From Giesbergeria sp. (lineage in GTDB: Bacteria > Pseudomonadota > Gammaproteobacteria > Burkholderiales > Burkholderiaceae_C): 64,000 nt of DNA. Of the stretch, positions 3,647 to 20,689 are shown piece after piece. The position numbers and the translations under genes are program-made. The first letter of the stretch is position 1. Every line of letters begins with the position of its first letter. Below the pieces are notes generated by a model. That model had not been told where the DNA came from. It was given only the letters and a program-made list of their open reading frames with translations, and did not search any database. The stretch lies in NCBI GenBank assembly GCA_017985015.1, contig JAGNYI010000002.1, forward strand, positions 62,001 to 126,000, given 5' to 3'.

Positions 3647-4612
3647 TCACAACCCAGGTGACAGCGCCCTGGTGCCGGGCAGCAGCGTGGCCACTGCGGC
3701 CAGCAACAGTGCCGCGAGCAGGTTGTGTGCCAGCGCCACGCCCAGGGGGAGAGCGCCCAGTGCCAGAACGATCCCGACTTCGGTCTGCAGCGCCACCAGC
3801 GCGGCGAGTGCCGTGGCTGCCTTGCGGCGACCGGCACGCCAGGCAACCAGCGCGAGTGCGAGTACCGCCGCAAGCACTGCCAGCGCACCCAAACGGTGCA
3901 GCCATTGCACCCCCACGCCGCCAGCGTACTGCGACAGGCCGGCGCCCGCGCCGGGCACCTGCCAGGGGTCAAGCGCCTGCCAGTTCGCCGCTCCGGGACG
4001 GCAGCCAGGCAGCTGCGGGCAGCTCAGGCCGGCGTAGCCCGCGCTGATCAGTCCACCCAGCGCCATTTGCAGCAGCAGCAGTACCAGCGCCGCCCACGCC
4101 CAGCGCCCCAGTGGCGGGCCGGTGGGCGCCTGGCGCGGTGAAGGGCGCAGCGCCAGGCGCACACAAACGGCGAACAACACCAGGCCGCCCAACAGATTTC
4201 CCAACGTGACCGCCGGCACGCGCGAACCGGAAGTGAACGGCCCCAGCACTGCGAGGAAGAGCACCAGGCCCAGCGCGAGCAGGATCTGGCGCCCTTCGCT
4301 GTCCGCACGGGGTCGGGGAATCCACGCCAGCGCCGTCATGCCCAGCAGCAACACCAGCAAGGACGAAGCGGTCACCCGGTGCACGGCGCGTGCCCCGCGC
4401 TGGGCTGGGCCAGCGGCCTCTGGCGGCGATTCGCCGAGAGCAGCGCGTCCATGGCAGGCTGGCCAGGGCGTGCAACCCAAGCCCGCATTCGACTGGCGCA
4501 GAAACGCGCTCAGGCTGATCACCACCAGCACCAGCGCCGCACACAGCCAGGCGGCACGGCGCAGCAGACTTCGGCGCTTGGCCGAACTCATCGACGGGAT
4601 AGGGGAATGCAT
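3647..4612 (-). CDS. ctaA: Heme A synthase (COX15/CtaA family)
   Basis: About 321 aa with eight predicted membrane segments. Two cysteine pairs typical of the family are visible: CTPWPACHG near the N-terminus and CPQLPGC in the middle. Candidate heme-ligand histidines are in AVHRVTAS, WLHRLGAL and ALAHNLL. It converts heme O to heme A. The ATG at 4612 has GAAGAG about 6 bases upstream. It is divergent from the heme-copper locus, which also carries ctaB, so the complex encoded there probably needs heme O or A. It could instead serve a remote aa3 oxidase. Confidence 0.85.
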   Translation of the reverse strand: MHSPIPSMSSAKRRSLLRRAAWLCAALVLVVISLSAFLRQSNAGLGCTPWPACHGRAALGESPPEAAGPAQRGARAVHRVTASSLLVLLLGMTALAWIPRPRADSEGRQILLALGLVLFLAVLGPFTSGSRVPAVTLGNLLGGLVLFAVCVRLALRPSPRQAPTGPPLGRWAWAALVLLLLQMALGGLISAGYAGLSCPQLPGCRPGAANWQALDPWQVPGAGAGLSQYAGGVGVQWLHRLGALAVLAAVLALALVAWRAGRRKAATALAALVALQTEVGIVLALGALPLGVALAHNLLAALLLAAVATLLPGTRALSPGL

Positions 4613-4707
4613 CTTGCGCTCTTCAAGAAAAGCGGCCATTCTGCTGACCGAGAGAGTGGAAAGGGCGCGACGCTACTGGTTTCCCCTAGCGTTGTTGGCG
4701 GCGGAGC

Positions 4708-4721
4708 TTGTCGTAGATCAA
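4708..4721 (+). promoter_or_regulatory. FNR/DNR-like binding site upstream of the heme-copper locus
   Basis: TTGTC-GTAG-ATCAA matches 8 of 10 positions of the FNR/Anr/Dnr consensus TTGAT-N4-ATCAA, with a perfect right half. It lies in the divergent region between ctaA and the small membrane gene, about 62 bp upstream of the latter's ATG. That would suit oxygen- or NO-responsive activation. No strong sigma-70 boxes are evident. Confidence 0.45.
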
Positions 4722-4783
4722 TTTTACGATGGAGGCAAACCCGAAAATCGTTTGCATCTTTAGGTAACCGAGGAGATACCCCC

Positions 4784-4939
4784 ATGGAACACCATGACGA
4801 CGAGAACGAGAAGGTTCCGATGATCCAGCAGCTACTGGACAACCCTTTCCTGCTGCTGTTTATCGGGGTGATGGTCCCGATGATCGTTTACTCCCTCTGG
4901 GGAGTGATCGAAATCTTGACCATTCCGCTGGCCAAGTGA
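4784..4939 (+). CDS. Small single-span membrane protein, possible oxidase accessory subunit
   Basis: 51 aa with an acidic N-terminus (MEHHDDENEK) and one transmembrane helix (about residues 20-45). A clear ribosome site, GAGGAG, lies 9 bases before the ATG. It ends 13 bp before the CuA subunit gene. Position and shape resemble the small extra helix (subunit IIa) found with B-family ba3-type oxidases, but I see no decisive sequence motif. It is likely a structural subunit of the downstream complex. Confidence 0.6.
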   Translation: MEHHDDENEKVPMIQQLLDNPFLLLFIGVMVPMIVYSLWGVIEILTIPLAK

Positions 4940-4952
4940 AGGAGCACCGCAC

Positions 4953-5492
4953 ATGAGCGCAATCCTTCCCCCCGCAGAGCGCCTTTGGTGGAAACACCCT
5001 CTCGACCGCGTCGAAGGCGTCTGGATCGCCATTGCCTTTGCCTGGTGCATGGTGATGTTCTTCATGATGGTTGGCTGGCATATCTACGGCAAGCAAAACC
5101 TCTCCACGGAAACCTACAAAACCACGCCCGAAAAGTTTTCTGCCAAGGCACAGGCCATGGTGGACAAATACACCGTGCGCACCGAAACCGACCAGAACAT
5201 TCCGGTGGTGCACCCGCCTGAGGGAAGCGATATTTACCTCGTTGCCCGCCTCTGGGCCTGGTGGCCCATTCTGGAGCTGGAAAAAGACAAAACCTACAAG
5301 TTGCACTTGACCTCTATGGACTACAACCACGGCTTCTCTCTGCAGCCCACCAACATCAACATCCAGGTGGTGCCTGGTTATGAGCACGTGATCAAGGTCA
5401 CGCCCAACCAGTCGGGCCAGTTCTCGATTGTGTGCAATGAGTTTTGCGGCATCAACCACCACACGATGGTGGGGCGCCTCTACGTCAAATAG
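4953..5492 (+). CDS. Heme-copper reductase subunit II with CuA site
   Basis: 179 aa. One N-terminal transmembrane helix (about 24-45) anchors a periplasmic cupredoxin domain. The CuA ligands are complete: H126 (MDYNHGF), C161, E163, C165, H169 and M172 (CNEFCGINHHTM). It takes electrons from a periplasmic cytochrome or copper protein and passes them to subunit I. The single anchor and short length match B-family (ba3-like) and sNOR-type subunit II rather than the long aa3 type. GGAGC precedes the ATG. Confidence 0.9.
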   Translation: MSAILPPAERLWWKHPLDRVEGVWIAIAFAWCMVMFFMMVGWHIYGKQNLSTETYKTTPEKFSAKAQAMVDKYTVRTETDQNIPVVHPPEGSDIYLVARLWAWWPILELEKDKTYKLHLTSMDYNHGFSLQPTNINIQVVPGYEHVIKVTPNQSGQFSIVCNEFCGINHHTMVGRLYVK

Positions 5493-5507
5493 CAGGAGCA
5501 CACACCC

Positions 5508-7235
5508 ATGGCCGCAACTTCTGCCGCGCTTGCCTCAGGCAACGCCACCACCTACCGTACCTGCCCGCGTTCGGGCCTGCAGTTCGAGCGCAGCGCCGAA
5601 CGTCTGATGATCTTCAATGCGGTGACTGCCGTCGTCGCGTTGCTGGTCGGCGGCATCCTCGCCATTGGCGTGGTGCTGACCCGCTGGCCCGCCGTCCACT
5701 GGCTGGCCGCCGACACCTTCTACATGGTGCTCACCGCCCACGGCATCGACATGCTCATCTTCTGGATGATTTTCTTTGAAGTCGCGGTGCTGTATTTCTG
5801 TTCGTCCACGCTGCTGCGCTGTCGAATCGCCACGCCCAAGATCGCATGGATCGCCTACGCGCTGATGGTGGTCGGCGCCCTCATGAACAACATCGACGTG
5901 TTCCGCGGCGGCTCCAGCGTGATGATGACGTCTTATGTGCCCATGATGGCTACGCCCTGGTTCTATCTGGGGCTGATTCTGTTTGCTGTCGGCGCGCTCA
6001 TCGCCTGCTTCGTGTTTTTCGGCACCCTGGTGGTGGCCAAACGCGACAAGACCTACCAGGGCTCGGTGCCACTCGTGACCTTTGGCGCCATCGTCGCGGC
6101 CATCATTGCGGTGTTCACCATCGTCTCGGGCGCCATCATCCTGATTCCTACTTTCTTCTTGGCCATAGGATGGATCAAAGAGGTGGACCCGCTGATTTAC
6201 CGCACCATCTGGTGGGCGTTCGGTCACTCGTCGCAGCAAATTAACGTGGCCGCGCACATTTCGATCTGGTACGCAGTGGCGGCCATCGTGTTCGGTGCCA
6301 AGCCGATGTCTGAGCGCGTCAGCCGCGGCGCCTTCCTGCTCTACATCTTCTTCCTGCAGCTCGCCAGCGCCCATCACCTGCTGGCCGACCCCGGCGTGAG
6401 CACCGAGTGGAAAGTCGTCAACACCAGCTACTTCATGTACTTCGCGGTGCTGGCGTCGATGATTCACGGCCTGACGATCCCGGGCGCAATCGAAGTTGCA
6501 CAGCGCGCCAAAGGCTACAACAAGGGCCTCTTCGAGTGGCTGCGCAAAGCGCCCTGGGGCAACCCCACGTTCTCTGGCATGTTCATCTCCCTCATTGGGT
6601 TTGGTTTCCTCGGCGGCATTTCGGGCGTGATGATGGGCACGGAACAGCTCAACCTGATCATCCACAACACGATCTACGTGCCAGGGCACTTCCATGCCAC
6701 GGTGGTGGTGGGTACAACGCTGACGTTCATGGCGTTCACCTACTTCCTGATTCCTGTGCTGTTCAAGCGCGAAGTCATCTCCCCGGGCCTGGCCAAAATC
6801 CAGCCCTACCTGTTCGGCTTCTCGATGTACTTTTTCTGTCTGGTGATGATGGGGGCCGGCACGCTGGGCGTCTCGCGCCGGCATTGGGACATGGCCTTCG
6901 GCGGCGCCGCTATGGCATACGAATGGCCGGGAGCTGCCTATCTAATGATGGGATTGGTGGGCATCGGCGGTATCGCAGCCATCACCGGTGGTGCGCTGTA
7001 CATCTACCTCACCGTCGGATCGATCCTGTGGGGCAAGAAGCTCGACGCTGGCGTCCCGAACCCGCGCTTTACGCCTATCCCGCCAACGGCACCCAGCGCG
7101 GCCGCTCAAGTGTACGGCTCCGCCGGATTTGCCGCGCCGGGCACGTTTGTGCTGGCCATGGTGTTCCTGCTGGCCTTCATCTTGTACTACTTCATCAACT
7201 GGAAGTACCTGGCACAGCTGTGGGGCATGTCCTGA
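5508..7235 (+). CDS. Heme-copper catalytic subunit I, B-family-like with Tyr-to-Gln substitution (sNOR-like)
   Basis: 575 aa, 12 or more membrane helices. Heme and copper ligands are present: H78 (low-spin heme), H240, H289 and H290 (CuB), H394 and H396 (VPGHFHA). The B-family signature HHLLADPG is clear. The helix VI motif HPxxY, whose tyrosine is cross-linked to a CuB histidine in O2 reductases, reads HSSQQ (240-244), so the tyrosine is glutamine. Loss of that tyrosine is a hallmark of NO-reducing members of the superfamily such as the NorY of ammonia oxidisers. I therefore favour NO reductase over oxidase, but activity is unproven. A CtaB and SenC follow, as senC does in norSY clusters. 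Confidence 0.8.
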   Translation: MAATSAALASGNATTYRTCPRSGLQFERSAERLMIFNAVTAVVALLVGGILAIGVVLTRWPAVHWLAADTFYMVLTAHGIDMLIFWMIFFEVAVLYFCSSTLLRCRIATPKIAWIAYALMVVGALMNNIDVFRGGSSVMMTSYVPMMATPWFYLGLILFAVGALIACFVFFGTLVVAKRDKTYQGSVPLVTFGAIVAAIIAVFTIVSGAIILIPTFFLAIGWIKEVDPLIYRTIWWAFGHSSQQINVAAHISIWYAVAAIVFGAKPMSERVSRGAFLLYIFFLQLASAHHLLADPGVSTEWKVVNTSYFMYFAVLASMIHGLTIPGAIEVAQRAKGYNKGLFEWLRKAPWGNPTFSGMFISLIGFGFLGGISGVMMGTEQLNLIIHNTIYVPGHFHATVVVGTTLTFMAFTYFLIPVLFKREVISPGLAKIQPYLFGFSMYFFCLVMMGAGTLGVSRRHWDMAFGGAAMAYEWPGAAYLMMGLVGIGGIAAITGGALYIYLTVGSILWGKKLDAGVPNPRFTPIPPTAPSAAAQVYGSAGFAAPGTFVLAMVFLLAFILYYFINWKYLAQLWGMS

Positions 7236-7250
7236 CCGAGAGACAGCACC

Positions 7251-8150
7251 ATGACTACCGACACGCTCGAACCTATCCGAAGCCGGGCCGCGCAACGTAC
7301 GCGGGATGTCGTCTCGCTGTTCAAGCTGCGCATTGGCTCGCTCATCATGGTCACTGCATTGGTGGGCATGGTGGTGACGCCTGGGCCGGCGCCCAGCTGG
7401 ATTGAGGTGCTGGTGTTGGCGCTGTCGGTGCTGGTCGCTTCGGCCAGCGCGGGCGCCTTCAACCAGTATGTCGAGCACCAGAGCGACCAGCTGATGGCGC
7501 GCACGCGCCGGCGCGCCTTTGTTACCGGCGCACTGCCGCACCACCCCGCGTGGCTGGTGTTGATGGGCGCCATGCTCGCGGGTGCCGTCGCGGCAGCGTG
7601 GCTAGTGCTCAACGGTGCGGCAGCGCTGTACGTGTTTCTGGGTGCGTTCTTTTATGCCTTTGTGTACACCGTATGGCTCAAGCGCCGCAGTGCGATGAAT
7701 ATCGTCATCGGCGGTCTGGCCGGCAGCTTCGCCGTGCTCGCGGGCGCGGCCGCTGTCGATCCGACGCTTGGACCGCTGCCCTTGCTGCTGGCCTTGGTGC
7801 TCTTTCTGTGGACGCCGCCGCATTTCTGGGCCTTGGCGATTGCCAACCGCGCCGACTATGCGCAGGCGGGCGTACCCATGCTGCCGGTGGTGGTGGGCAA
7901 CGAGCGTGCCGCGCGCATCGTCTTTGGCAGTACCGTCGCGTTGCTGGTGGCTTCGCTGTTGCCGGCATTCTGGGGCGCGGGCCCGGTGTATTTCATCGGC
8001 GCCTTGGGTGGTGGCTTGCATTTCGTGCACAAGGCCTGGGTGCTGTCGCGCGAAGTGACCCGTGCGCACGCCATGTCGGCCTTCTTTGCTTCGCTGGTAC
8101 AACTGAGCACATTGCTGGTGGCGGCTTGCGTGGACGGCCTGGTCCGCTAA
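7251..8150 (+). CDS. ctaB: Protoheme IX farnesyltransferase (heme O synthase)
   Basis: 299 aa UbiA-superfamily prenyltransferase with about nine membrane helices. It has the family motifs YTVWLKRRSAMNIVIGG and TPPHFWALAI...DYAQAGVPMLP. The first metal-binding motif, normally N-x3-D-x3-D, reads NQYVEHQSD, so the first aspartate is glutamate. It would attach a farnesyl chain to heme b for the neighbouring catalytic subunit. It lies 15 bp downstream of subunit I, and ctaA is divergent at the locus start. Confidence 0.85.
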   Translation: MTTDTLEPIRSRAAQRTRDVVSLFKLRIGSLIMVTALVGMVVTPGPAPSWIEVLVLALSVLVASASAGAFNQYVEHQSDQLMARTRRRAFVTGALPHHPAWLVLMGAMLAGAVAAAWLVLNGAAALYVFLGAFFYAFVYTVWLKRRSAMNIVIGGLAGSFAVLAGAAAVDPTLGPLPLLLALVLFLWTPPHFWALAIANRADYAQAGVPMLPVVVGNERAARIVFGSTVALLVASLLPAFWGAGPVYFIGALGGGLHFVHKAWVLSREVTRAHAMSAFFASLVQLSTLLVAACVDGLVR

Positions 8151-8162
8151 GCGAGCTTGCAC

Positions 8163-9014
8163 ATGTCCTGCCTTCGCCCCTTTGCTGCGCTGCTGTTGGC
8201 GTGGGCGATGGGGCTGGGCTCCCTGCCCGCCGCAGCGAGCGATGCCACTGACGGCAGGCCCGTTCTCGATAAGACAATCGCCTTGCGTGCCAGCCAGGAT
8301 GCGGTGGGTCGGGAACTTGGCGAGCACCTGTTTCGTGATCGCTCGGGCCGCACGGTAGCCCTGTCGAGCTACCGTGGCAAGCCGTTGTTGGTTAGCTTTA
8401 TCTATACCGGTTGTTTCCAGATCTGCCCCGGCACCACACGCGCCTTGCAGCAAGCGGTGGAGGCGCTCCAAAAAAGCGTCGGGCCAGGGCAGTTCAATGT
8501 GGTGAGCATTGGCTTCAACCAGCCGGAGGACTCCCCTGGCGCGCTCAAGGCGTTTGCCGCCCAATTCCATATCAATTCGGACAACTGGGAATTTCTCAGC
8601 CCACGCGGGGCCGATGTGCCCGCCTTGACGCGCGATTTCGGTTTTCTGTATGAGCCTACACCGGCGGGTTTTGACCACGTGCTGCAACTGAGTCTGGTGG
8701 ATTCGCGGGGCCGGATCGTGCGCCAGATTTATGGCGAACAACTCAATGCTGCCGATCTGGGCGAGCCGCTGCGTTTGTTGCTGGCGGGTTCGCCGGTGGC
8801 CCATGAACGGGTGCTGGAAGGCCTGTTCGAGCGCGTTCGCTTGGTGTGCACGGTGTACGACGCGAAAACCGGCAACTACCGTGTCGACTACACCCTGCCG
8901 ATCCAGATTGCCGGTGGACTGACCTTTTTTGTGGTGATGATGGTGTTCTTTTTCCGAGAGTGGCGCGCGACGCGGCCGCGCGCACGCCAGCGTCAGTATC
9001 CGCGTGGCCGCTAA
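8163..9014 (+). CDS. SCO1/SenC-family copper chaperone with C-terminal membrane anchor
   Basis: About 283 aa. A signal peptide (LLLAWAMGLGSLPAAAS) precedes a thioredoxin-like SCO domain. The copper ligands are C84 and C88 (YTGCFQICPG) and H172 (GFDHVLQL). These proteins metallate or reduce the CuA site. Unusually, the domain is followed by a C-terminal transmembrane helix (about 252-272, ending FFFREW), so the protein is held to the membrane at its tail. The ATG at 8163 is chosen over a TTG two codons upstream. It is the senC of this locus. Confidence 0.88.
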   Translation: MSCLRPFAALLLAWAMGLGSLPAAASDATDGRPVLDKTIALRASQDAVGRELGEHLFRDRSGRTVALSSYRGKPLLVSFIYTGCFQICPGTTRALQQAVEALQKSVGPGQFNVVSIGFNQPEDSPGALKAFAAQFHINSDNWEFLSPRGADVPALTRDFGFLYEPTPAGFDHVLQLSLVDSRGRIVRQIYGEQLNAADLGEPLRLLLAGSPVAHERVLEGLFERVRLVCTVYDAKTGNYRVDYTLPIQIAGGLTFFVVMMVFFFREWRATRPRARQRQYPRGR

Positions 9015-9026
9015 GGTCTGGCGCCC

Positions 9027-10694
9027 GTGGCTGTCTTGACCCACCGGTCCTCCGCATCTGCGCCGCCGCACATTGCCGCGCGTCTGTGGCGCGCGCTCGA
9101 ACATGGCTTTGACGCGCTGGTCGGAGCGGGCGGCAATCCACTCAAGCAGCTCGGTGCTTTGGGTTTTCTGCTCTTGTGGCTGCTGGTGGGCAGCGGCGCG
9201 GTGCTCTACGCGGTGCTCGACACTTCGGCCAGCGGCGCCTACCAATCCATTGAGGCGCTTTCGCGCGAGCAGTGGCGCTGGGGAAGTCTTCTGCGTGGAT
9301 TGCACCGCTACGCCGCCGACGCCATGGTGTTGGTGGTGCTTGCCCACGTCGTGCGCGAATGGATGCTGGGGCGTTTTCGCAGCTTTCGCGCGGCCTCGTG
9401 GCTGACCGGTGTGCCCCTGCTGCTGCTGCTGTTCGTCAGTGCCATCGGTGGTTTTTGGCTCAACTGGGACCGGCTCGGGCAGTTTTCTGCCACCGCGACT
9501 GCCGAATGGCTCGATGCGCTGCCCGGTCTGGCCTCGCCTCTGGCCCGCAATTTCCTGAGCGGCACCCAATTGAACGATCGCCTGTTCTCCCTGTTCGTGT
9601 TTGTGCACCTGGGCGTACCGCTCATGCTGGTGTTTGGTCTGTGGTTTCATGTGCAGCGCCTGAGCCGCGCGCAGGTGTTTCCGACGCGTGCGCTGGCCAC
9701 CGGTACCGGCCTGACTTTGCTGATCCTCGCCGCGATTCGGCCGGTGCGCAGCCAGGGTCCGGCCGATCTCGCCACCGTTCCCGCAACGCTGAACTACGAC
9801 TGGTTGCTGCTGTTCATTCATCCGCTGACAGCGGCCACTTCGGCAGCGATGGTGTGGGGCCTGCTGGTATTTTTCATCGCGCTGTTGCTGGCCCTGCCTT
9901 GGTTGGGCGCTTGGCGCGCGCGCGCGCAGCCGGTGGCGCTTCGCGCTGCTACGGGCGACGCGGTTGAAGCTGGAGCAGTCTTGCCTGCCACCTCGCATAC
10001 GCATTGGAGACCGGCCGCGCTCACACAGTTTGTGGCCGAGGTGGACCCGGACCATTGCAGCGGCTGCCGCCGCTGCGTGGAAGATTGCCCCTATGCCGCC
10101 ATCACCATGGTGCCGCACCCCAGCGGTCGCGTCGGCATGGAGCTGGCGCAGGTGCGCAGCGACCTGTGCGCGAGCTGCGGCATCTGTGTGGGCTCCTGCC
10201 CCTCGTCCACGCCGTTTCGCAGTGCCGAGGTGCTGCATACCGGGATCGACATGCCCCAGTGGCCCATCGATGCCCTGCGCCGGCAGATGCAAAGCGGCTT
10301 GGCCGCGCTGCCCGGACCCCGGCGCTACGTGGTGTTCGGCTGTGCCGAGGGCGCGGACTTGGGCCAGCTGTCCGCAGACGAGGTGCTTGCTTTGCCCCTG
10401 GTTTGCACCGGGCTGCTGCCACCATCTTTCATCGAATACGCGTTGCGCGCCGGTGCCGATGGCGTGCTGGTTGCAACGTGTCGCGAGGGGGGCTGTGCTT
10501 TCCGCCTGGGCGAACGCTGGACGCGTGAGCGCCTGCAGGGCCTGCGCGAGCCGCGTTTGCGCGCCAGCGTGTCAGCAAGCGGTTGGTCGCTGGTCGCTGC
10601 GGACCGCGGCGACGAAGCGGTTTTGGCTGCTGCCCTTCAGGCCCTGCGCTCGCGTACGGCAGAATCTTTTGAATATCCGGAGTCCACTGCATGA
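9027..10694 (+). CDS. Cytochrome b - 2x[4Fe-4S] ferredoxin - MvhD-like fusion
   Basis: 555 aa from a GTG start. Residues ~30-300 form a bc1-type cytochrome b N-terminal domain with two histidine pairs 14 residues apart (H93/H107, H194/H208), enough for two b hemes. Two ferredoxin motifs follow: C344-x2-C347-x2-C350-x3-C354P and C381-x2-C384-x2-C387-x3-C391P. The C-terminal ~120 residues resemble the MvhD/FrhD electron-transfer subunit (GADGVLVATCREGGC, cysteines 439, 460, 485, 490). It probably exchanges electrons between a cytoplasmic iron-sulfur partner and membrane hemes or quinone. The partner is unknown. Confidence 0.75.
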   Translation: MAVLTHRSSASAPPHIAARLWRALEHGFDALVGAGGNPLKQLGALGFLLLWLLVGSGAVLYAVLDTSASGAYQSIEALSREQWRWGSLLRGLHRYAADAMVLVVLAHVVREWMLGRFRSFRAASWLTGVPLLLLLFVSAIGGFWLNWDRLGQFSATATAEWLDALPGLASPLARNFLSGTQLNDRLFSLFVFVHLGVPLMLVFGLWFHVQRLSRAQVFPTRALATGTGLTLLILAAIRPVRSQGPADLATVPATLNYDWLLLFIHPLTAATSAAMVWGLLVFFIALLLALPWLGAWRARAQPVALRAATGDAVEAGAVLPATSHTHWRPAALTQFVAEVDPDHCSGCRRCVEDCPYAAITMVPHPSGRVGMELAQVRSDLCASCGICVGSCPSSTPFRSAEVLHTGIDMPQWPIDALRRQMQSGLAALPGPRRYVVFGCAEGADLGQLSADEVLALPLVCTGLLPPSFIEYALRAGADGVLVATCREGGCAFRLGERWTRERLQGLREPRLRASVSASGWSLVAADRGDEAVLAAALQALRSRTAESFEYPESTA

Positions 10695-11194
10695 AGCGTG
10701 TTTTCAATTGGGCGGGGCAAGCGCTGCTGTATGGCATTTTTGCTGCCTTTGTGGTTATTTTTTCCCAATGGCCGGCGTATGCGCCGCTGGCGCCGGAGGA
10801 GGCACTCATCAAGCTGAGCTTCGTGCACCACGGCCAGCGCGTCGCCGAATGCCGGCCTTACACCGCCGACGAACTGGCCAAACTGGCCCCCAACATGCGT
10901 GCCCCGCTCAAGTGCGGGCGCGAGCGCGCTCCGGTGACGATAGAGTTGGATATTGATGGGGCACTGGCGTATCGCTACACGGCCGCGCCGTCGGGACTCT
11001 CGCGCGACGGCGCATCCACGGTCTACAAGCGTCTGGAATTGCCGGCCGGCAAGCACCGGATTGCTGTGCGCATGCGCGACACCACGGCCACCAGCGGGTT
11101 TACCTACCAGCACGATGCGACGGTAGACCTGGTGCCGGCCCAGGTGCTGGTGATTGACTTTGATTCCGAGCGCGGAGAAATCGTCTTGCTATGA
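10691..11194 (+). CDS. Unknown membrane-anchored protein of the heme-copper locus
   Basis: 167 aa. One N-terminal hydrophobic helix (about 9-28) is followed by a soluble, probably periplasmic domain rich in beta strands. Two cysteines (AECRPY, PLKCGRE) could form a disulfide or bind a metal. I do not recognise the family; it resembles FixH/CcoH only in size and topology. Its ATG overlaps the previous stop and its stop overlaps the next ATG, so it is translated with its neighbours and is probably a subunit or assembly factor. Confidence 0.6.
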   Translation: MKRVFNWAGQALLYGIFAAFVVIFSQWPAYAPLAPEEALIKLSFVHHGQRVAECRPYTADELAKLAPNMRAPLKCGRERAPVTIELDIDGALAYRYTAAPSGLSRDGASTVYKRLELPAGKHRIAVRMRDTTATSGFTYQHDATVDLVPAQVLVIDFDSERGEIVLL

Positions 11195-12654
11195 GCGCCG
11201 TGGCTCCTTCGTCGCTTCCGTCCGCAAGCTTGCCAGCGAACCGTCCGCTGCCTGCGCAAGCCGCTGCCGATTATTCGCTGGCGGTGCCGCAAGACGCGCG
11301 CCGCGCTCTGGCGCGCGGCTGGCTCTGGTTGGGGCTGTTCGCCTTGGTGGGCTCGGGCCTGTTTTCCATCTTGCTCGTGCTCTCGCGCACCCCGGGCGTG
11401 AACCGCCTGCTGCCGGCGGCAGACTTCTTTCACACTTCGCTGGTGTTGCACGTGGATCTGTCGGTGCTGGTCTGGTTCATGGCCATGGCGGGCCTGCTCT
11501 GGAGCGTGCACGGCAGTGGCCGAGCGATGCGTTGGGCCTGGGCCGCGCTGTGGACCTGCGCTGCGGGCACCCTGGCAATGGCCGTTGCACCCTTCGTGGG
11601 TGCCGGCGAGCCCATCATGGCCAACTACATACCGGTGCTGAGTTCGCCGCTGTTCCTTGGCGGCTTGGTGGTATTCGGGCTGGGCGTGGGGGTGCTCGCG
11701 CTGCGCAGCCTGTTGGCGGCACCCCGGCTAGGCATGGCGTTTGGCGGGCGCGGTGCGCTGGGTTTTGGTCTCAACGCCGCTGCCGTGGCCACGGTGGTGG
11801 CATTGCTGGCGTTTGCCTGGTCGTTCGAGCAACTGTCTTTGTCGCTGACCGGCAAGGCCTATTACGAAATACTGTTCTGGGGGGGCGGTCACGCCTTGCA
11901 GTTCACCTGGACGCTGCTGATGCTGGTGGGCTGGCTGTGGCTGGCGAACGCCTGCGGCGCGCGGCTGCGGTTGAGCCCGCGCGTGACGCTCTTCATGTTC
12001 GCCCTGGCGCTGGCGGGCGTGTTTGTCACACCCTGGGCCTATCTGGCCCACGACATCAGCTCGGTGGAGCACCGCGCGCTGCTGACCTGGGCCATGCGCG
12101 CTGGAGGCGGTACGGCCATCGTGCCGGTCGCCCTGGCGGTGGTGGTGGCGCTGTACCGCCTGCCGCTGGCGCACGCCACACAGCACCCGCTGCGCGCCGC
12201 CCTGCTGGCCTCGATCCTGCTGTTTGGCGCGGGGGGCGTGATCGGCATCTTCATCAGCGGCAGCAACGTGCGCATTCCCGCGCATTACCACGGCTGCATT
12301 GTCGGCGTGACGCTGGCGCTGATGGGGCTGGTTTACCACCTGCTGCCTGCGCTCGGCTACGCAGCGCCCAAAGGTCGGTTGGCGGTGGCTCAACCCTGGG
12401 TGTACGGCCTGGGGCAGCTGATGCACATCGTCGGCCTGGTGTGGTCGGGTGGTTACGGGGTGCAGCGCAAGGTGGCGGGCGCCGAGCAGGTGCTGCGCTC
12501 GAACGCTGAAATCGCCGGCATGGGATTGATGGGGTTTGGCGGTTTGGTCGCCATCATCGGCGGCGTGTTGTTTATTGTCGTGACGGTTCGGGCAATGCGG
12601 ACAAAAGAGAGCGCGGGAACCCCCGTCGCCAATGAAATGGTGGTTCAGCAATGA
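11191..12654 (+). CDS. Degenerate heme-copper-oxidase-fold membrane protein lacking the CuB His-His pair
   Basis: 487 aa, about 12 membrane helices, cbb3/NOR-like subunit I fold. Heme ligands are preserved: H87 (HTSLVLHVDLSVL) and H365/H367 (IPAHYHGCIVG). H234 in helix VI (FWGGGHALQF) matches the first CuB histidine. The helix VII His-His is missing: the region reads PWAYLAHDISSVEH with isolated H287 and H294. There is no HPxxY tyrosine and no NOR-type glutamate. It may carry two hemes but an altered or absent third metal. It overlaps both neighbours by ATGA. Confidence 0.7.
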   Translation: MSAVAPSSLPSASLPANRPLPAQAAADYSLAVPQDARRALARGWLWLGLFALVGSGLFSILLVLSRTPGVNRLLPAADFFHTSLVLHVDLSVLVWFMAMAGLLWSVHGSGRAMRWAWAALWTCAAGTLAMAVAPFVGAGEPIMANYIPVLSSPLFLGGLVVFGLGVGVLALRSLLAAPRLGMAFGGRGALGFGLNAAAVATVVALLAFAWSFEQLSLSLTGKAYYEILFWGGGHALQFTWTLLMLVGWLWLANACGARLRLSPRVTLFMFALALAGVFVTPWAYLAHDISSVEHRALLTWAMRAGGGTAIVPVALAVVVALYRLPLAHATQHPLRAALLASILLFGAGGVIGIFISGSNVRIPAHYHGCIVGVTLALMGLVYHLLPALGYAAPKGRLAVAQPWVYGLGQLMHIVGLVWSGGYGVQRKVAGAEQVLRSNAEIAGMGLMGFGGLVAIIGGVLFIVVTVRAMRTKESAGTPVANEMVVQQ

Positions 12655-14578
12655 AAGTGATTCAGTCGGCCCTCCAGTGGCTCTTCATGCGCGTGGAGGA
12701 TTTGTTCAATCGCGCTTTTGGCGATCGCATCAATCCCTTGTACCACCTGGGATCGATCACTTTTTTCCTGTTCTGGATCGTCGGTGGCAGTGGCCTGTAC
12801 CTCTATGCCTTTTTTGAGACTGGGGTGACCGGCGCCTACGACTCGGTCCAGTCGCTGACGCACGGCCAGTGGTGGCTGGGAGGCATCCTGCGCAGCGTGC
12901 ACCGCTACGCGTCCGATGCCATGGTGCTCACCATGATGCTGCACATGCTGCGCTACTTCGCGTTCAACCTGTTCCATGGTTTTCGCTGGTTTTCCTGGGT
13001 CACCGGGGTGGCGCTGATCTGGCTGGTCTACGCCTCGGGCGTCAATGGATACATGCTTCCCTGGGACGCGCTGGCGCAGTACGTCACCGTCACCAGCTTC
13101 GAAATGCTCGACTGGCTGCCGCCGTTCAGCGGCACGCTGATGCGCAACTTTGTGTATGCCGACAGCGTCAGCGACCGATTCTTCTCGCTGCTCTCCTTCC
13201 TGCACATCGGTCTGCCGCTGGTGGTGCTGCTGCTCATGTGGATCCACGTGCAGCGTGTGCCCAAGGCGCGCACCACGCCCCCGCGCCCGGTAGTGATCGG
13301 CCTGGTCAGTACTTTGCTGGTCATGTCCCTGGCTGCGCCAGTGCTCAGCCAGGGGGGCGCGGCCAATCTGGCCAAGGCGGTCATGAGCGTGAAGCTCGAC
13401 TGGTTCCTGCTGGCGCTTTACCCGCTGCTCAGCCAGTGGCCCCTCGGCGAGGTGTGGGCGCTGGTTTCCGGCATTACGTTGGTGATGCTGCTCCTGCCTC
13501 TGTGGCCGCAGCGGCGAAGCACGGCGCAAGGCACGCTGCACGCTACGGTGCGCGGCGAAGGCGCAAGCGCCGCTGAATTCACGCTGCGTCCGGGGGAGAC
13601 GCTGCTGGACGCTGGCCTGCGCGCGGGTCTGGCGCTGCCCTATGAATGCCGCAATGGCGCCTGCGGTCTGTGTCTGTGCAGCCTGGAGCAGGGCACCGTG
13701 GAGCAGCGCCCGTACCAAAAGTCGGCCCTTTCTGACGCCCAGCTGGCGCGCGGCCTGGCGCTGATGTGCTGCGCCGTGCCCAATGGCGACGTGGTAATTG
13801 CCGTCGATGGCTTCACCGGTGCAAGCGCTACCGAGGTCCCGCAATACGAAGCACGCGTGGTGAACATGGAGCATCTGGCCGACGACGTGATGCGTCTGCG
13901 CCTGGAGCTGCCGGGCGCTGCGCGCCTGGCCTTCGAGGCCGGCCAGTACATCGATATCGTGCTGGAGGACGGCGAGCGCCGTGCTTTCTCGTTTGCCAAC
14001 TCTCCCCAGGACAACGCGCTGATTGAACTGCACGTGCGCCTGGTTCCAGGCGGGCGCTTTACGACCCACGTGTTCGAGGGCATGCAGGTCGGCGACACGA
14101 TCGTGTTTGAAGGTCCGCGCGGCCAGTTCACGCTGCGAGAAGGCACCCAGCCCATACTGTTCATTGCGGGCGCGACAGGCTTCGCGCCCATCAGGAGCAT
14201 CGTGCTGGACGCGTTTGCGCGCGGAATCACGCGTCCCATGCGGCTGTATTGGGGCGTGCGCCACAGCAAGGATTTGTACATGCTGGCGCTGTGCGAGGAG
14301 TGGCAGCGCCAGTACGCCAACTTCAGTGTGGTGCCGGTGGTGTCAGAGCCAGAGCCGGGCGATGGCTGGGAGGGGCGCATCGGTCTGGTACACGGTGCCA
14401 TGCTGGACGATTTCCCCGACCTCAGCGGCCACGAGGTCTATCTCTGCGGCTCGGTGCGCATGGTCGAGACAGCGATCCCGGCCTTCCTGGCGCAGGGTCT
14501 GGGCGAGGGATCGTGCTTCTCTGACGCGTTCGTTCCAGCGGCGCGGCCGGCATCGGCCGACACTTCAGAGCTTGGCGC

Positions 14579-14597
<19 letters not shown>
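12651..14597 (+). CDS. Cytochrome b - [2Fe-2S] ferredoxin - NAD(P)H:flavin reductase fusion
   Basis: 648 aa. Residues ~1-290 are a cytochrome b N-terminal domain paralogous to that of the fusion encoded at 9027, with histidine pairs H84/H98 and H185/H199. Residues ~295-390 are a plant-type ferredoxin (C333, C338, C341, then LMCCAVPNG). Residues ~390-630 are a ferredoxin-NADP reductase module: RAFSFANSP for [13 protein letters not shown] for NAD(P)H and LCGSVRMVE. Electrons could flow from NAD(P)H through FAD and [2Fe-2S] to b hemes, then to the neighbouring heme-copper-fold protein or quinone. Its 3' end overlaps convergent ubiD by 19 bp. Confidence 0.8.
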
Positions 14598-16672
<2,075 letters not shown>

Positions 16673-16785
16673 TCTTGTTCGGCTGAAACAGGGGCGGGAC
16701 AACTTCCCTTTCCCTTATTCCAATTCTGCCGGTGGCGTCGATCCGCAGGCGCTGGAGGAGCGTGGGCCGAGGGTGGGTTGTTTAA

Positions 16786-17370
16786 TTATTCTTCACCCGC
16801 CCAGCGCTGGGTGAGGGCGTGCGGCAGGCCGAGCAAGTCCAGCACCCGCGCCACGCTGGCATCCACGATGTCGGCCACGCTTTGCGGGCGCAGGTAGAAG
16901 GCGGGCATAGGCGGGCAGACGATGGCGCCCATCTCGGTCACGCTGACCATGTTGCGCAGATGGCCCAGGTGCAGTGGGGTCTCGCGCGCCATCAGGACCA
17001 GGCGGCGGCGTTCTTTCAGCACCACGTCGGCAGCGCGCGTGAGCAGGTTGTCCGACAGGCTGTGCGCCACCGAGGCCAGCGTGCGCATCGAGCAGGGCGC
17101 TACCACCATGCCGGCGCACTGAAACGATCCACTGGCAATGCTGGCGCCCACGTCGCGTGCGTCGTGCGCCTGGTGTGCCAGGGCTTCGACGGCGGGGCGC
17201 TCCAGGCCCAGTTCGTAGCGCAGCGTGCGCCAGCCGGCGTCCGAGACCACCAAATGCGATTCGGCGCCGGGGCATTCACGCAGTACCTGCAGCAGGCGCA
17301 CGCCATAGACCGCGCCGCTGGCACCCGAGATGCCGACGATGATGCGTTGGAGGGCGCTGGGAGGGTTCAT
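16786..17370 (-). CDS. ubiX: UbiX, flavin prenyltransferase
   Basis: About 194 aa. It attaches dimethylallyl to FMN to make the prenyl-FMN cofactor of UbiD. The N-terminus IIVGISGASGAVYGVRLL is the FMN-binding start, and APCSMRTLASVAHSLSDNL plus RETPLHLGHLRNM are family signatures. MNPPSAL at 17370 is the preferred start; an in-frame start at 17400 would add ten residues with no family support. It is encoded on the same strand as ubiD, separated from it by the oppositely oriented lipoprotein gene. Confidence 0.93.
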   Translation of the reverse strand: MNPPSALQRIIVGISGASGAVYGVRLLQVLRECPGAESHLVVSDAGWRTLRYELGLERPAVEALAHQAHDARDVGASIASGSFQCAGMVVAPCSMRTLASVAHSLSDNLLTRAADVVLKERRRLVLMARETPLHLGHLRNMVSVTEMGAIVCPPMPAFYLRPQSVADIVDASVARVLDLLGLPHALTQRWAGEE

Positions 17371-17432
17371 GGGGGGCAAGCTTAGGGCGATGCTGAACAA
17401 GTCACCGCGTGAGGGACTTGTTCAGCATTGTC

Positions 17433-17876
17433 TTATGCCAATCGCAGGGTTTGAGCGTTGCCAGCGGCCTGGTTCGCAGCATTGTGGGTCCGGGCGGCGG
17501 GAGCCAGTGGGTTGGCCAGCAGGTCGGTCTGGACCTGCTCCAGCACGGTGCCCGCCTGTGCGGGGTCAAAGTCTTCATGGCGGCGCTTTTTCACGCCGTA
17601 CTGCTGCAACTGGTAGTGCCGGTCGGCGGTGATGCCGTGGCGCGCCAGGCACCCTTGCACGCAGTTGAGCGGGCAACCGTCGAGCGCAATGATGGGGCGG
17701 CCTGAGCGCGCGGTGCGCACTAGGCTGGGAACGTCGCCACCGACACCGGCAATGCACGACATCTCGGCCACGCCAGCGCGGTCCAGGCGCAGGGCCACGT
17801 GGTTGGCCAATTGCGCGGCGCTGGAGCAGCCCGAGCAGGAATAGACCAGGGGCAACAAGTTGCGTTCGCTGTTCAT
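17433..17876 (-). CDS. DGC-domain putative zinc-binding protein
   Basis: 147 aa, cysteine-rich. Clusters are YSCSGCSSAAQ, MSCIAGVGGDVPS and DGCPLNCVQGCLA, the last being the DGC motif that names the family. The metal is unproven; iron-sulfur is possible. The start MNSERN at 17876 overlaps the ubiT stop by ATGA, so it is translated with the O2-independent ubiquinone genes and may help supply or protect metal for UbiU/UbiV or accept electrons. Role is inferred from linkage only. Confidence 0.75.
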   Translation of the reverse strand: MNSERNLLPLVYSCSGCSSAAQLANHVALRLDRAGVAEMSCIAGVGGDVPSLVRTARSGRPIIALDGCPLNCVQGCLARHGITADRHYQLQQYGVKKRRHEDFDPAQAGTVLEQVQTDLLANPLAPAARTHNAANQAAGNAQTLRLA

Positions 17877-18406
17877 GGCCGTGCACCGGGATAGAGCGGG
17901 TCGGCAGAGCGAGCGCCGGGGCGCAGCGCGGCCAGGCGCGAGAGCACATGGCGCGGCGTCCACTGCTGCAGATCAAGCACCGGCAGATCGAGCGCGTCGA
18001 GCGTGTTTTTCACCACCAGGCCCAGTTCGGTGTCGCCTTCCATGACCAGGCGGCGGTTGAAGAACAGCGTGTCCGGGTCTTGCTGGCGCTGCGCCAGCAG
18101 CAGAAAGTCGTGCGCGGAGGCGTTGATGCACAGGTCGGTCTCGCGCTGGCGCGGCCGGGCAGCAAAGGCGTTGCCCGTCCAGGTGAAATCCAAAGTGACG
18201 CGGGCGTCGCGCACCTGGATGCGCAGGCGCTTTCCGCGCAGCATCTCGCCCACATCGCTTGGAATTTGGCGCGCGACGCCCAGGTTCAGCGCCGTCACCA
18301 GCAAGAGCGAGCCCGGGTACGCGGGCAGCCGCCCGGTGAGCGCGGCCAGAGGCGTAGGCAGGGTGAAGGGGCGGGAAGTGGTGGTGGCGGAGGCGGGGGC
18401 GTTCAT
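17873..18406 (-). CDS. ubiT: UbiT, SCP2-domain lipid carrier of O2-independent ubiquinone synthesis
   Basis: 177 aa with a sterol-carrier-protein-2 domain (about residues 40-140; LNLGVARQIPSDVGEMLRGK, FNRRLVMEGDTELGLVVKN). Homologue of E. coli UbiT (YhbT), which binds polyprenyl intermediates for the anaerobic pathway. It is downstream of ubiU and ubiV on the same strand and overlaps the DGC-domain gene. A palindromic repeat separates it from ubiV. Confidence 0.85.
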   Translation of the reverse strand: MNAPASATTTSRPFTLPTPLAALTGRLPAYPGSLLLVTALNLGVARQIPSDVGEMLRGKRLRIQVRDARVTLDFTWTGNAFAARPRQRETDLCINASAHDFLLLAQRQQDPDTLFFNRRLVMEGDTELGLVVKNTLDALDLPVLDLQQWTPRHVLSRLAALRPGARSADPLYPGARP

Positions 18407-18444
18407 GGCATTCCTTGTGGGTGGGGTGCTCTGTTTTAATTTTG

Positions 18445-18480
18445 ATAGCTGCTAAAGCTTATGCAATAAGCGCTAGAGGC
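18445..18480 (-). repeat. Short palindromic intergenic repeat, copy 2
   Basis: It reads ATAGCTGCTAAAGCTTATG on the plus strand and continues CAATAAGCGCTAGAGGC. The right arm ATAAGCGCT is intact and the left arm has lost two bases. It lies between the co-directional genes ubiV and ubiT, so it may attenuate or protect the mRNA between them. Confidence 0.75.
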
Positions 18481-18519
18481 ACTTTTTACTTGTATTTTTT
18501 GAGTCGCATCGCTTGCCTG

Positions 18520-19437
18520 TCAGGCGGGCGCCAGCGCCTGTGTCTCCACCAGGTCCAGGCCGGGCTGGCCGTGCCAGTAGCCGTTGCAGCTCTGGTCGGG
18601 CACCAGGGGCTGGAGTTGGGCGCGGGCGTCGTGCGGTGCCAGCGCGCCGCGGCGCACGGCGTCGAACAGGGCGACGATCTCGCTCGTGTGCTGGGCCTGC
18701 GGGCTGATGCGGGCCACGGCGACACCCATGCGCTGCATGCGTGGCAGTTCGTCGATCAGGTTGTGCACGCGGGCCGATTGCGTCTGGATGCCGTTGAGCA
18801 CCAGAAAATCCTGGCTCTCGCGCGTCTTGAGCATCAGGCCGTCGGGGTGGTCCATGCAGGCGAACTGGCAGTCGTCCTTGGGCAGGTTGCGCTGGCGCGC
18901 GGTGAAGCACCGTGCAGAGAAAGCCAGCGGCATGCGGCCATAGGCGAACACTTCGGTCTGCAAGTTTTGTGGACCCGCCTCGATGAGGGCGGAAAGATCC
19001 TGGTGCTTCATCTCCAGCGGCGCCACCCAGCGCGTGGCGCCCAGCGAAGCCAGCCAGGTGAGCGAGGGCTGGTTGTAGATATTCAGGTGCAGGCCGCCAA
19101 CAAAGGGGCGCTGGCCCGCCAGGCGCTGCACTGCGCCCATGTCGTTGGCTTCGATGAGGTAATCAAGGTTGCTGGTGACCTTGTGCATGGCACTCACCTC
19201 GACGCCCGATTCGAGCAGCACCTGAGTCGACAGCACGGCCTCCTTGCCCGAATCGCGCATCAGGTCGGCGATGTCGATCCAGTCGGAAAACCGCAACTCG
19301 TGGCGGCGCGAGCACACGGTTTCGCCCAGGTAGACGATGTCCACGGGCGAGGCGGCGATGGCCTCGTAGAAGTCGAAGATGGTCTGGCGCGGCCAGTAGT
19401 ACTGCAGCGCGCCGAGCGAGAGTTTCAAGGAAGACAT
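18520..19437 (-). CDS. ubiV: UbiV, U32-family O2-independent ubiquinone hydroxylase subunit
   Basis: About 305 aa peptidase-U32-like protein. With UbiU it forms a heterodimer that hydroxylates ubiquinone intermediates without oxygen, using prephenate as oxygen donor. Four [4Fe-4S] cysteines are recognisable: C42, C177, C190 and C194 (DDCQFACMDH). MSSLKLS at 19437 has GGAAA upstream and starts 5 bp after the ubiU stop, so the two are tightly coupled. Confidence 0.88.
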   Translation of the reverse strand: MSSLKLSLGALQYYWPRQTIFDFYEAIAASPVDIVYLGETVCSRRHELRFSDWIDIADLMRDSGKEAVLSTQVLLESGVEVSAMHKVTSNLDYLIEANDMGAVQRLAGQRPFVGGLHLNIYNQPSLTWLASLGATRWVAPLEMKHQDLSALIEAGPQNLQTEVFAYGRMPLAFSARCFTARQRNLPKDDCQFACMDHPDGLMLKTRESQDFLVLNGIQTQSARVHNLIDELPRMQRMGVAVARISPQAQHTSEIVALFDAVRRGALAPHDARAQLQPLVPDQSCNGYWHGQPGLDLVETQALAPA

Positions 19438-19442
19438 CGTTG

Positions 19443-20504
19443 TTATTTCCATGGCCGGTGGTAGGCGCCCAGGGTGTGCTGCTGGCCTTCGGCGACCTGG
19501 TCGAGACTGGCCATCCAGGCGGTCTTGGGGGCGTAGCGCAAGGGGTCGGCCAGGCAGTTGTCGATGGCCTCGCGCCAGACCTTGGTGACCTGGGCGGTGT
19601 AGGCGGGGCTGCGCTGGCGCCCTTCGATCTTCACGGCACGCACGCCGATCTTCATCAACTCGGGCAACAGTTCCAGGGTGTTCAGGCTGGTCGGCTCTTC
19701 GATGGCGTAGTAGTTTTTGTCTTCGGCCACGTCAAAGCGCCCCTTGCACAGCGTCGGGTAGCCGGCGTTCTCGCCGGGGGCGTAGCGGTCGATCAGCACG
19801 CCGTTCAGGCGCGATTCGAGGCCCTTGGGCGTTTCTTGCCAGCGCACGGACTTGGGCGGCGAGCACACGCCGTGCGTGTTGGGCGACTCGCCCGTCACAT
19901 ACGACGACAGGGCACAGCGCCCCTCCACCATCACGCACAGGCTGCCAAAACCGAAGACTTCGATTTCCACCGGGGTACGGTCGATCACACGCCGCACCTG
20001 CTCCATCGACAGCACGCGCGGCAGCACGGCGCGCACGACGCCGAACTGCTCGCGGTAGAAGTTGATGGCGTCGGCACTGGTGGCCGAGCCCTGCACCGAC
20101 AGGTGCAGGCGCAGCTTGGGGTGGTGCTGCGCGGCGTATTGCATCAGGCCCGGGTCGGCCAGGATGACGGCGTCCACGCCCAGGTCCACGGCTTTGTCCA
20201 CTGCCGCGCGCCAGGGCGCGGGGTTGGCGGCCTGCGGGTAGGTGTTGAGCGCCATGAACACCTTGCAGCCCTTGGCGTGGGCGTAGGCAATGCCGCTGGC
20301 AATGGCCGCTTCGTCAAAGTTCAGGCCGGCGAAGTTGCGCGCGTTGGTGGCGTCGCGCAGGCCCAGGTAGACGCAACTGGCGCCGTTGTCTACCGCAGCC
20401 TTGAGGGCCGGCAGGCTGCCTGCGGGGCAGACCAGTTCAAAGGGGAGCAGTGCGGGTGCAGGCGCTGCGGCTTCGGGGGTGGGTGTGAGTGTGGGGGCGT
20501 GCAT
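19443..20504 (-). CDS. ubiU: UbiU, U32-family O2-independent ubiquinone hydroxylase subunit
   Basis: About 353 aa. U32 domain starting FELVCPAGSLPALKAAVDNG. The [4Fe-4S] cysteines are C190, C197, C214 and C253 (GSLCVMVEGRC, GVCSPP, TLCKGRF), matching the E. coli pattern. It is first in ubiU-ubiV-(repeat)-ubiT-DGC. MHAPTLTP at 20504 is preferred to a start at 20570 that would add a non-homologous stretch. I found no convincing FNR box in the 185-bp region upstream. Confidence 0.88.
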   Translation of the reverse strand: MHAPTLTPTPEAAAPAPALLPFELVCPAGSLPALKAAVDNGASCVYLGLRDATNARNFAGLNFDEAAIASGIAYAHAKGCKVFMALNTYPQAANPAPWRAAVDKAVDLGVDAVILADPGLMQYAAQHHPKLRLHLSVQGSATSADAINFYREQFGVVRAVLPRVLSMEQVRRVIDRTPVEIEVFGFGSLCVMVEGRCALSSYVTGESPNTHGVCSPPKSVRWQETPKGLESRLNGVLIDRYAPGENAGYPTLCKGRFDVAEDKNYYAIEEPTSLNTLELLPELMKIGVRAVKIEGRQRSPAYTAQVTKVWREAIDNCLADPLRYAPKTAWMASLDQVAEGQQHTLGAYHRPWK

Positions 20505-20689
20505 GCGAAGACCAGGAGAAAAGCGCGAGCGCCGCAGGGGGCAGGCGGCTGCGCAATAGCGCGCAACCATACGCGTGACCGACGCGCTGTGCGCTGACCT
20601 TTGTCAAGACAGCGCCACAATCGAAGCCGCCCCTCGGCGCCCACGCGACTGCTAAGGACCGCCGCGGCCCCGCACAATAACGACCCCCT

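Follow-up and report, generated by a model that had tools for sequence, protein, structure and literature searches.

A heme-copper locus of NirS-type denitrifiers as a likely eNOR-like nitric oxide reductase with a predicted electron-supply module

Is the large heme-copper locus at positions 3647–14597 of a stretch of Giesbergeria sp. DNA a nitric oxide (NO) reducing system, an oxygen reductase or a relative of some system already described, and what role might be played by the cytochrome b genes that stand beside its catalytic subunits? The stretch, hereafter the window, is 64,000 nucleotides long (contig JAGNYI010000002.1 of assembly GCA_017985015.1, positions 62,001 to 126,000), and the first-pass annotation of it had proposed that the locus possibly reduces NO. 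The answer favoured here, with a probability of roughly three in four, is that its eNOR-like enzyme, in which a glutamine (Gln) takes the place of the active-site tyrosine (Tyr), is the respiratory NO reductase of NirS-type denitrifiers, accompanied by a co-occurring module predicted to supply electrons. An NO-reducing role is the best reading of three observations: the association of the locus with NirS, its replacement of cNOR, and the lack of cNOR and qNOR matches in the window's own genome.

Ten genes had been placed in the locus, and each is an open frame where it had been put. In the list that follows, full loci are the 56 that have enough flanking DNA among 80 loci fetched with the degenerate heme-copper paralogue (dHCO) as query.

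3647–4639, minus strand (divergent): ctaA, heme A synthase-like (COX15-CtaA; Pfam PF02628, 122.9 bits)
4708–4721, no strand: FNR/DNR-type box TTGTCGTAGATCAA (8 of 10 consensus positions; 63–76 bases 5′ of the operon's first open reading frame, ORF)
4784–4939, plus strand: single-helix membrane ORF of 51 amino acids (aa), possible small subunit (ORF list; present in 56/56 full loci)
4953–5492, plus strand: subunit II with CuA motif (Pfam COX2, 26.8 bits; ligand pattern kept in 65 rows)
5508–7235, plus strand: subunit I, eNOR-like, Gln244 for the active-site Tyr (Pfam COX1, 210.9 bits; ba3 alignment; tree)
7251–8150, plus strand: ctaB, heme O synthase (TIGR01473, 255.4 bits, above cut-off)
8157–9014, plus strand: SCO1/SenC-type copper chaperone with C-terminal membrane segment (Pfam SCO1-SenC, 50.2 bits)
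9027–10694, plus strand: cytochrome b (two hemes)–2[4Fe-4S]–MvhD/FlpD fusion, GTG start (Pfam; ligands invariant in 50/50 rows)
10691–11194, plus strand: 167-aa anchored protein without a family (model; alignment of 51; 56/56 full loci)
11191–12654, plus strand: dHCO, degenerate heme-copper paralogue (Pfam COX1, 45.3 bits against a cut-off of 34.8; predicted structure; profile alignment)
12651–14597, plus strand: cytochrome b (two hemes)–[2Fe-2S]–FAD/NAD reductase (FNR) fusion (Pfam; ligands invariant in 31/31 rows)

Three ATGA overlaps, at 10691, 11191 and 12651, chain the last four genes, just as had been described, and an ATG codon at 8163 lies inside the ORF called for the SCO gene. The cofactor motifs are likewise intact, including those of both cytochrome b fusions.

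The nature of the catalytic core is most evident from subunit I, for which the closest solved structures by sequence are those of ba3 oxidases. In alignment with these, it retains the low-spin heme, high-spin heme and CuB histidines (His; H78, H240, H289, H290, H394 and H396), while Gln244 occupies the position of the ba3 tyrosine (H240-x3-Q244), such that the helix-6 region around the CuB His reads GHSSQQ, as compared with GHPIVY in a Thermus ba3. The reported loss of the catalytic tyrosine is thus real, with Gln standing there instead. The motif hardly varies: of 67 aligned relatives 66 have GHxxQQ, and it also occurs in 40/40 loci (the window's own included), in 119 of the 120 close homologues listed and in all 120 of the listed homologues of a Thermomicrobium relative, these sets overlapping in part. 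In subunit II, the residues H126, C161, C165 and H169, the CuA ligand pattern of this family, are each kept in at least 95% of 65 rows.

Phylogeny separates this enzyme from the oxidases. In a first, maximum-likelihood tree of 36 rows, 26 Gln proteins are split by one branch (support 98/99) from 7 Tyr-type B-family proteins, and a grouping with ordinary ba3 oxidases, which the first-pass annotation had named, together with high O2 and no NO activity, as the outcome that would count against an NO-reducing system, is not seen as far as sequence can tell. A second tree sets subunit I apart from the C-family rows.

The distribution of the locus among denitrifiers was followed in 250 genomes of the window's family and 120 of its order, three being common to both and removed from the pooled set of 367, with NirS scored by a strong cytochrome d1 match and cNOR or qNOR by a match at E ≤ 1e-15. 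In the family sample, NirS is present in 24 of the 26 genomes that carry the locus against 47 of the 224 others (p = 6e-13). NirK shows no association (2/26 against 13/224, p = 0.66); it is found in the twenty-fifth carrier, the twenty-sixth (G186) having neither gene. A cNOR- or qNOR-type match is present in 58 of the 71 NirS genomes and the other 13 all carry the locus; in other words, any such match is missing from 13/24 NirS-positive carriers and present in 47/47 NirS-positive non-carriers. When only strong cNOR matches are counted, the figures are 2/24 against 43/47 for E < 1e-100, and 4/24 against 44/47 for E < 1e-40. The order sample repeats this pattern less perfectly: 13 of its 14 carriers have NirS, and among the NirS-positive genomes any cNOR or qNOR is found in 5/13 carriers against 21/22 non-carriers, with a cNOR at E < 1e-100 in 2/13 against 17/22 and at E < 1e-40 in 2/13 against 21/22. 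NosZ of the TIGR04244 type accompanies NirS in 12 of the 24 NirS carriers of the family sample, and across both samples NirS lies at most 15.2 kilobases from subunit I in 15 of 39 carriers.

The window's own genome, which is 95.6% complete, contains NirS together with NosZ (TIGR04244, 1009.6 bits, above cut-off), and no cNOR or qNOR match was found in it. The same combination, again with no cNOR or qNOR match, recurs in G225, a genome of the same genus in three contigs and 100% complete. The proposal of an NO-reducing system is supported by this genomic setting, from which the function is inferred. The window's genome also has an aa3-like oxidase and CcoN, as well as a CcoN-like protein (G000:C71:51704-52942, locus L003) in a 578-aa frame that scores 258.7 bits against a CcoN cut-off of 583.15.

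These facts bear on the idea that subunits I and II are instead a high-affinity B-type oxygen reductase working at low oxygen, and that the link with NirS mirrors a micro-oxic life. That ba3 oxidases are the closest solved structures speaks for it, as do the annotation of the protein in its sources as a cbb3-type oxidase and the fact that the FNR-type box suits low oxygen equally well as NO; in addition, passages of PMC6967387 argue for a high-affinity oxidase role of the sNOR of Nitrosomonas europaea. Nevertheless, such a role is improbable here, since Gln replaces Tyr in nearly all homologues examined, the Gln clade lies apart from the Tyr oxidases, the locus stands in for cNOR, and the genome is already equipped with an aa3-like oxidase and CcoN. 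As an NO reductase, by comparison, the core would take electrons in at the CuA of subunit II and pass them to the low-spin heme, with NO being reduced to nitrous oxide (N2O) at the heme–CuB site of subunit I; ctaA, ctaB and SCO, encoded in the same cluster, could supply heme A or O and copper.

What, then, of the genes that follow the core? The first matter is whether they belong to it. Because the loci had been fetched with dHCO, an unbiased test of linkage has to come from independent searches, and whole genomes were accordingly searched separately with subunit I and with dHCO. The family sample has subunit I in 26 genomes and dHCO in 27, with both in 26; the two share a contig in 24/26 and are split in the fragmented G090 and G186, although the contig pieces of G186 fit the usual gene order. 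In G186, subunit I is moreover present twice, the copies being on separate contigs (L126, L128). The additional dHCO, that of G248, is divergent (47%) and without a subunit I. In the order sample, an identical set of 14 genomes has subunit I and dHCO, on one contig in 13 and split in G279. Pooled, this gives subunit I in 39 genomes, dHCO in 40 and both in 39, so that, judged by dHCO, the linkage of the last four genes to the first part, on which the first-pass annotation had hung its case, is near-perfect. To find a heme-copper paralogue with no copper site in each of 39 enzyme-bearing genomes is unusual.

Gene content tells the same story. By tblastn, the small ORF, subunits II and I, SCO and the 167-aa protein are present in all 56 full loci and ctaB in 54; both cytochrome b fusions occur in 49, the FNR type only in 4 and the MvhD type only in 3. 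Cultured carriers include Simplicispira hankyongi NY-02 (L007) and Castellaniella defragrans DSM 12141 (L022), the latter with a locus in which the FNR type is the sole fusion seen. The best ctaA match lies on the opposite strand in 42/56 full loci and on the operon strand in 5, and in several loci the FNR-type gene is found 5′ of the gene for the 167-aa protein. The arrangement of the locus genes is not due to chance. The components recur as a coherent respiratory locus, and the cytochrome b fusions and degenerate heme-copper protein, which had been singled out as additions, are conserved ones, every full locus having at least one fusion type.

Neither fusion shows decay in its cofactor motifs. 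In the MvhD type, four heme His, eight [4Fe-4S] cysteines (Cys) and four MvhD Cys are invariant in all 50 rows, and in the FNR type, where 56 ORFs gave an FNR match and 31 rows were kept by length, the same is true of four heme His and the four [2Fe-2S] Cys at 333, 338, 341 and 373. Both have an N-terminal four-His heme domain, as do cytochromes b of the ExtP type and of the bc1/b6 type, but the locus proteins differ from these in their fused ferredoxin–MvhD or [2Fe-2S]–FNR domains, and model NF040969 scores them at 90.7 and 108.5 bits, both below its cut-off of 290 bits. The 167-aa anchored protein gave no match in Pfam or NCBIfam; it is modelled as an N-terminal helix and a beta-sandwich (predicted local distance difference test, pLDDT, 94.5), with Cys54 and Cys75 invariant in an alignment of 51.

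dHCO is the degenerate partner in this set, a sister of the Gln clade as judged by sequence. Its predicted structure has the heme-copper fold and it keeps H87, H234, H365 and H367, which are the ligands of both hemes and one CuB His. In a profile alignment, Ala283-Tyr284 stand opposite His289-His290 of subunit I, such that two of the three CuB His are gone, as had been claimed. With regard to the features that define the heme-copper superfamily, therefore, the fold and the heme axial His are present, and the three-His CuB site is reduced to H234. Divergent dHCO paralogues are found in L121 (3653-14986) and L148 (2929-9411), near a cytochrome of 860–878 aa with 11 CxxCH motifs; in L121, an NHL-repeat protein, a thioredoxin-like protein and a two-component system also lie near the divergent dHCO.

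From these features, the module may be a membrane heme relay that leads from cytoplasmic donors to the quinone pool or to the reductase, a reading whose chances fall slightly short of even. In the bc1-like cytochrome b proteins, input domains of cytoplasmic type, either NAD(P)H–FAD–[2Fe-2S] or 2[4Fe-4S]–MvhD, would accept electrons from NAD(P)H or ferredoxin-like donors in the cytoplasm. These electrons would then travel via the b hemes and those of dHCO, and end either in the quinone pool or, without that detour, in the reductase. A relay is favoured because no heme or iron–sulfur ligand of the fusions varies among the rows kept and dHCO keeps the ligands of both its hemes, and also because two divergent dHCO paralogues adjoin the 11-CxxCH cytochrome. 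A bolder version joins everything in one membrane supercomplex, in which NAD(P)H- and ferredoxin-driven cytochromes b would feed a copper-less dHCO relay and this in turn its catalytic sister, replacing cNOR in Burkholderiales denitrifiers; on the sequences at hand, it is a doubtful but not a fanciful proposal.

The module could alternatively serve maturation, for example as a reductase that loads copper into subunits I and II or aids heme A synthesis for them. Its genes lie 3′ of ctaB and SCO in the same direction, dHCO is found in 39/39 of the genomes with subunit I, and reductases that aid the copper loading of other oxidases exist. It is unlikely all the same, as the Gln enzymes of Thermus and Thermomicrobium are without the module in the stretches seen, two divergent dHCO copies stand near multiheme cytochromes, and two-heme cytochromes b with NAD and iron–sulfur domains, two of them in most loci, would seem to exceed the need. 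It has also to be asked whether dHCO might be an NO-binding sensor or gate, the open heme of which would bind NO and so control electron entry or assembly. The retention of H365, the high-spin heme ligand, and of H234, with the CuB pair lost, could indeed leave a copper-free open heme, but a Pfam search found no signalling domain in dHCO and this role is quite improbable. The heme relay thus remains the preferred reading of the module.

More distant homologues give some indication of how the module may have been acquired. A small ORF also lies 5′ of the subunit II and I genes in Defluviimonas, Thermus and Thermomicrobium, and on Thermus plasmids the Gln-type small ORF, subunit II and subunit I have as a neighbour either a gene annotated as nirS or a NirK-like multicopper gene (the latter at 154 bits, cut-off 296.3), in surroundings that also hold an Rrf2 regulator and a short DUF542/RIC-type gene (below the NCBIfam cut-off). 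In the Thermus plasmid loci L114 and L118, helix 10 of subunit I reads HFK and not HFH, so that one heme ligand seems replaced. On an alphaproteobacterial plasmid of Defluviimonas (L113, 15405-17921), the core is accompanied by the MvhD-type fusion and by a protein related to the 167-aa one, with a hemerythrin gene in the place of dHCO. In the stretches fetched, the module is missing near the Thermus and Thermomicrobium enzymes and partial in Defluviimonas; it is therefore not needed for every Gln enzyme and would seem, from these comparisons, to have been added to one that already existed.

Several points weigh against the reading of the locus as an NO reductase with its own electron supply. 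With respect to the enzyme, a Gln at the active site is by itself compatible with oxygen reduction; the second tree supports the Gln clade at just 92/81; a very long Azospirillum branch joins the Gln side of the first (95/86); and P0342, the Ardenticatenales protein that falls with Thermomicrobium within the Gln clade (98/99), is unconfirmed as the published Ardenticatena eNOR. With respect to distribution, 11 of the 24 NirS-positive carriers of the family sample also have another NO reductase match, G312 has NirS without the locus and without a cNOR or qNOR match, in G347 (87% complete) the locus occurs without NirS, and in G186 (90% complete), which has a qNOR-type match, it occurs without either NirS or NirK; moreover, the genomes behind the NirS and cNOR statistics are related, their shared ancestry being uncorrected. 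With respect to the module, no dHCO or cytochrome b fusion was found within the stretches fetched from Thermus and Thermomicrobium, the Defluviimonas stretch is without dHCO, and both the direction that the electrons take and their final destination (quinone, CuA or subunit I) are guesses.

The surroundings of the operon are consistent with control by oxygen or NO. With TTGAT-N4-ATCAA as the FNR/DNR-type consensus, 54 of 64 stretches (the window and 63 loci, which are related and so not 64 independent cases) have, within the 320 bases 5′ of the operon, a box that matches it at 8 or more of the 10 positions, where mononucleotide shuffles would give about 4.2. FNR, ANR and DNR would each suit such a box, and oxygen and NO control are therefore not told apart by it. 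Among the neighbours in 85 stretches (the window, 80 loci and 4 plasmid loci), a Crp/Fnr-family gene occurs in 19 and NapA in 4. A cytochrome d1 gene is present in 16, of which 6, counting the query itself, share at least 57% identity with the query. An Rrf2 gene occurs in 6, the Rrf2 query scoring best on the NsrR model, below its cut-off. With weak matches counted, the genes of oxygen-independent ubiquinone synthesis are found in 14 (UbiU), 14 (UbiV) and 15 (UbiT) of these stretches; in the window itself, ubiD, a flavoprotein gene that is likely ubiX, a DGC-domain gene, ubiT, ubiV and ubiU adjoin the locus at 14579-20570 on the minus strand. Genes for oxygen-independent ubiquinone synthesis are thus present beside a denitrification locus. 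An ORF with a collagen-like repeat (16019-16672, plus strand; Pfam Collagen, 54.6 bits) sits between ubiD and the ubiX-like gene and in part runs opposite to them.

The locus likely lets its hosts, as far as their genomes indicate, denitrify without the usual NO reductase. A survey based only on norB and norZ would score the organism as a nirS and nosZ denitrifier without an NO reductase and, since the locus occurs in 39 of 367 genomes and is the sole NO reductase candidate found in 13 of the 71 NirS genomes of the family sample, this bears on counts of N2O producers. The module, for its part, poses the question of whether NAD(P)H or ferredoxin can serve, by way of b hemes, as the electron source of an NO reductase.

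How does the locus compare with known systems? Table A4 of PMC8756737, itself a modified version of one by Hemp and Gennis (2008), lists Tyr at the site in oxygen reductases, glutamate (Glu) in cNOR and qNOR, aspartate in gNOR, asparagine (Asn) in sNOR and in CuANOR (bNOR), and Gln in eNOR, the last with one proton channel and, according to the same source, a cupredoxin subunit II. The first-pass annotation had likened the core to the norSY-senC of ammonia oxidisers, that is to sNOR, with which it shares a CuA subunit II, subunit I and SCO/SenC (gene names as in passages of PMC6967387). With Gln in the window and Asn listed for sNOR, this likeness does not hold as the best match, and, judged by this residue, the tree being without sNOR rows, it is very improbable indeed that the locus is an sNOR; bNOR differs in the same residue as there listed. 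The B-family ba3 oxygen reductases are the closest solved structures and have the same heme and CuB His, but differ in the Tyr four residues past the helix-6 CuB His, which is Gln in the window, and in forming a separate clade. cNOR and qNOR, for which the locus stands in among some of the NirS genomes, share with it the inferred reaction, although its subunit I is not of the C-family and is without the Glu that the table lists for them. The nearest kind, given the listed Gln, is eNOR, with which the window has in common both the Gln at the tyrosine position and a cupredoxin subunit II beside subunit I, such that the catalytic core fits, by its sequence, a kind already known. eNOR is reported from Ardenticatena maritima, where its gene shares an operon with NirK (PMC4653789), from other Chloroflexi, and from some Gallionella and Zetaproteobacteria. 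To this core the window adds dHCO, one or two cytochrome b fusions and the 167-aa protein, a combination of which no description was found in the open-licence literature searched, although an earlier one is possible; a conserved module of this kind beside an eNOR-like core appears to be new.

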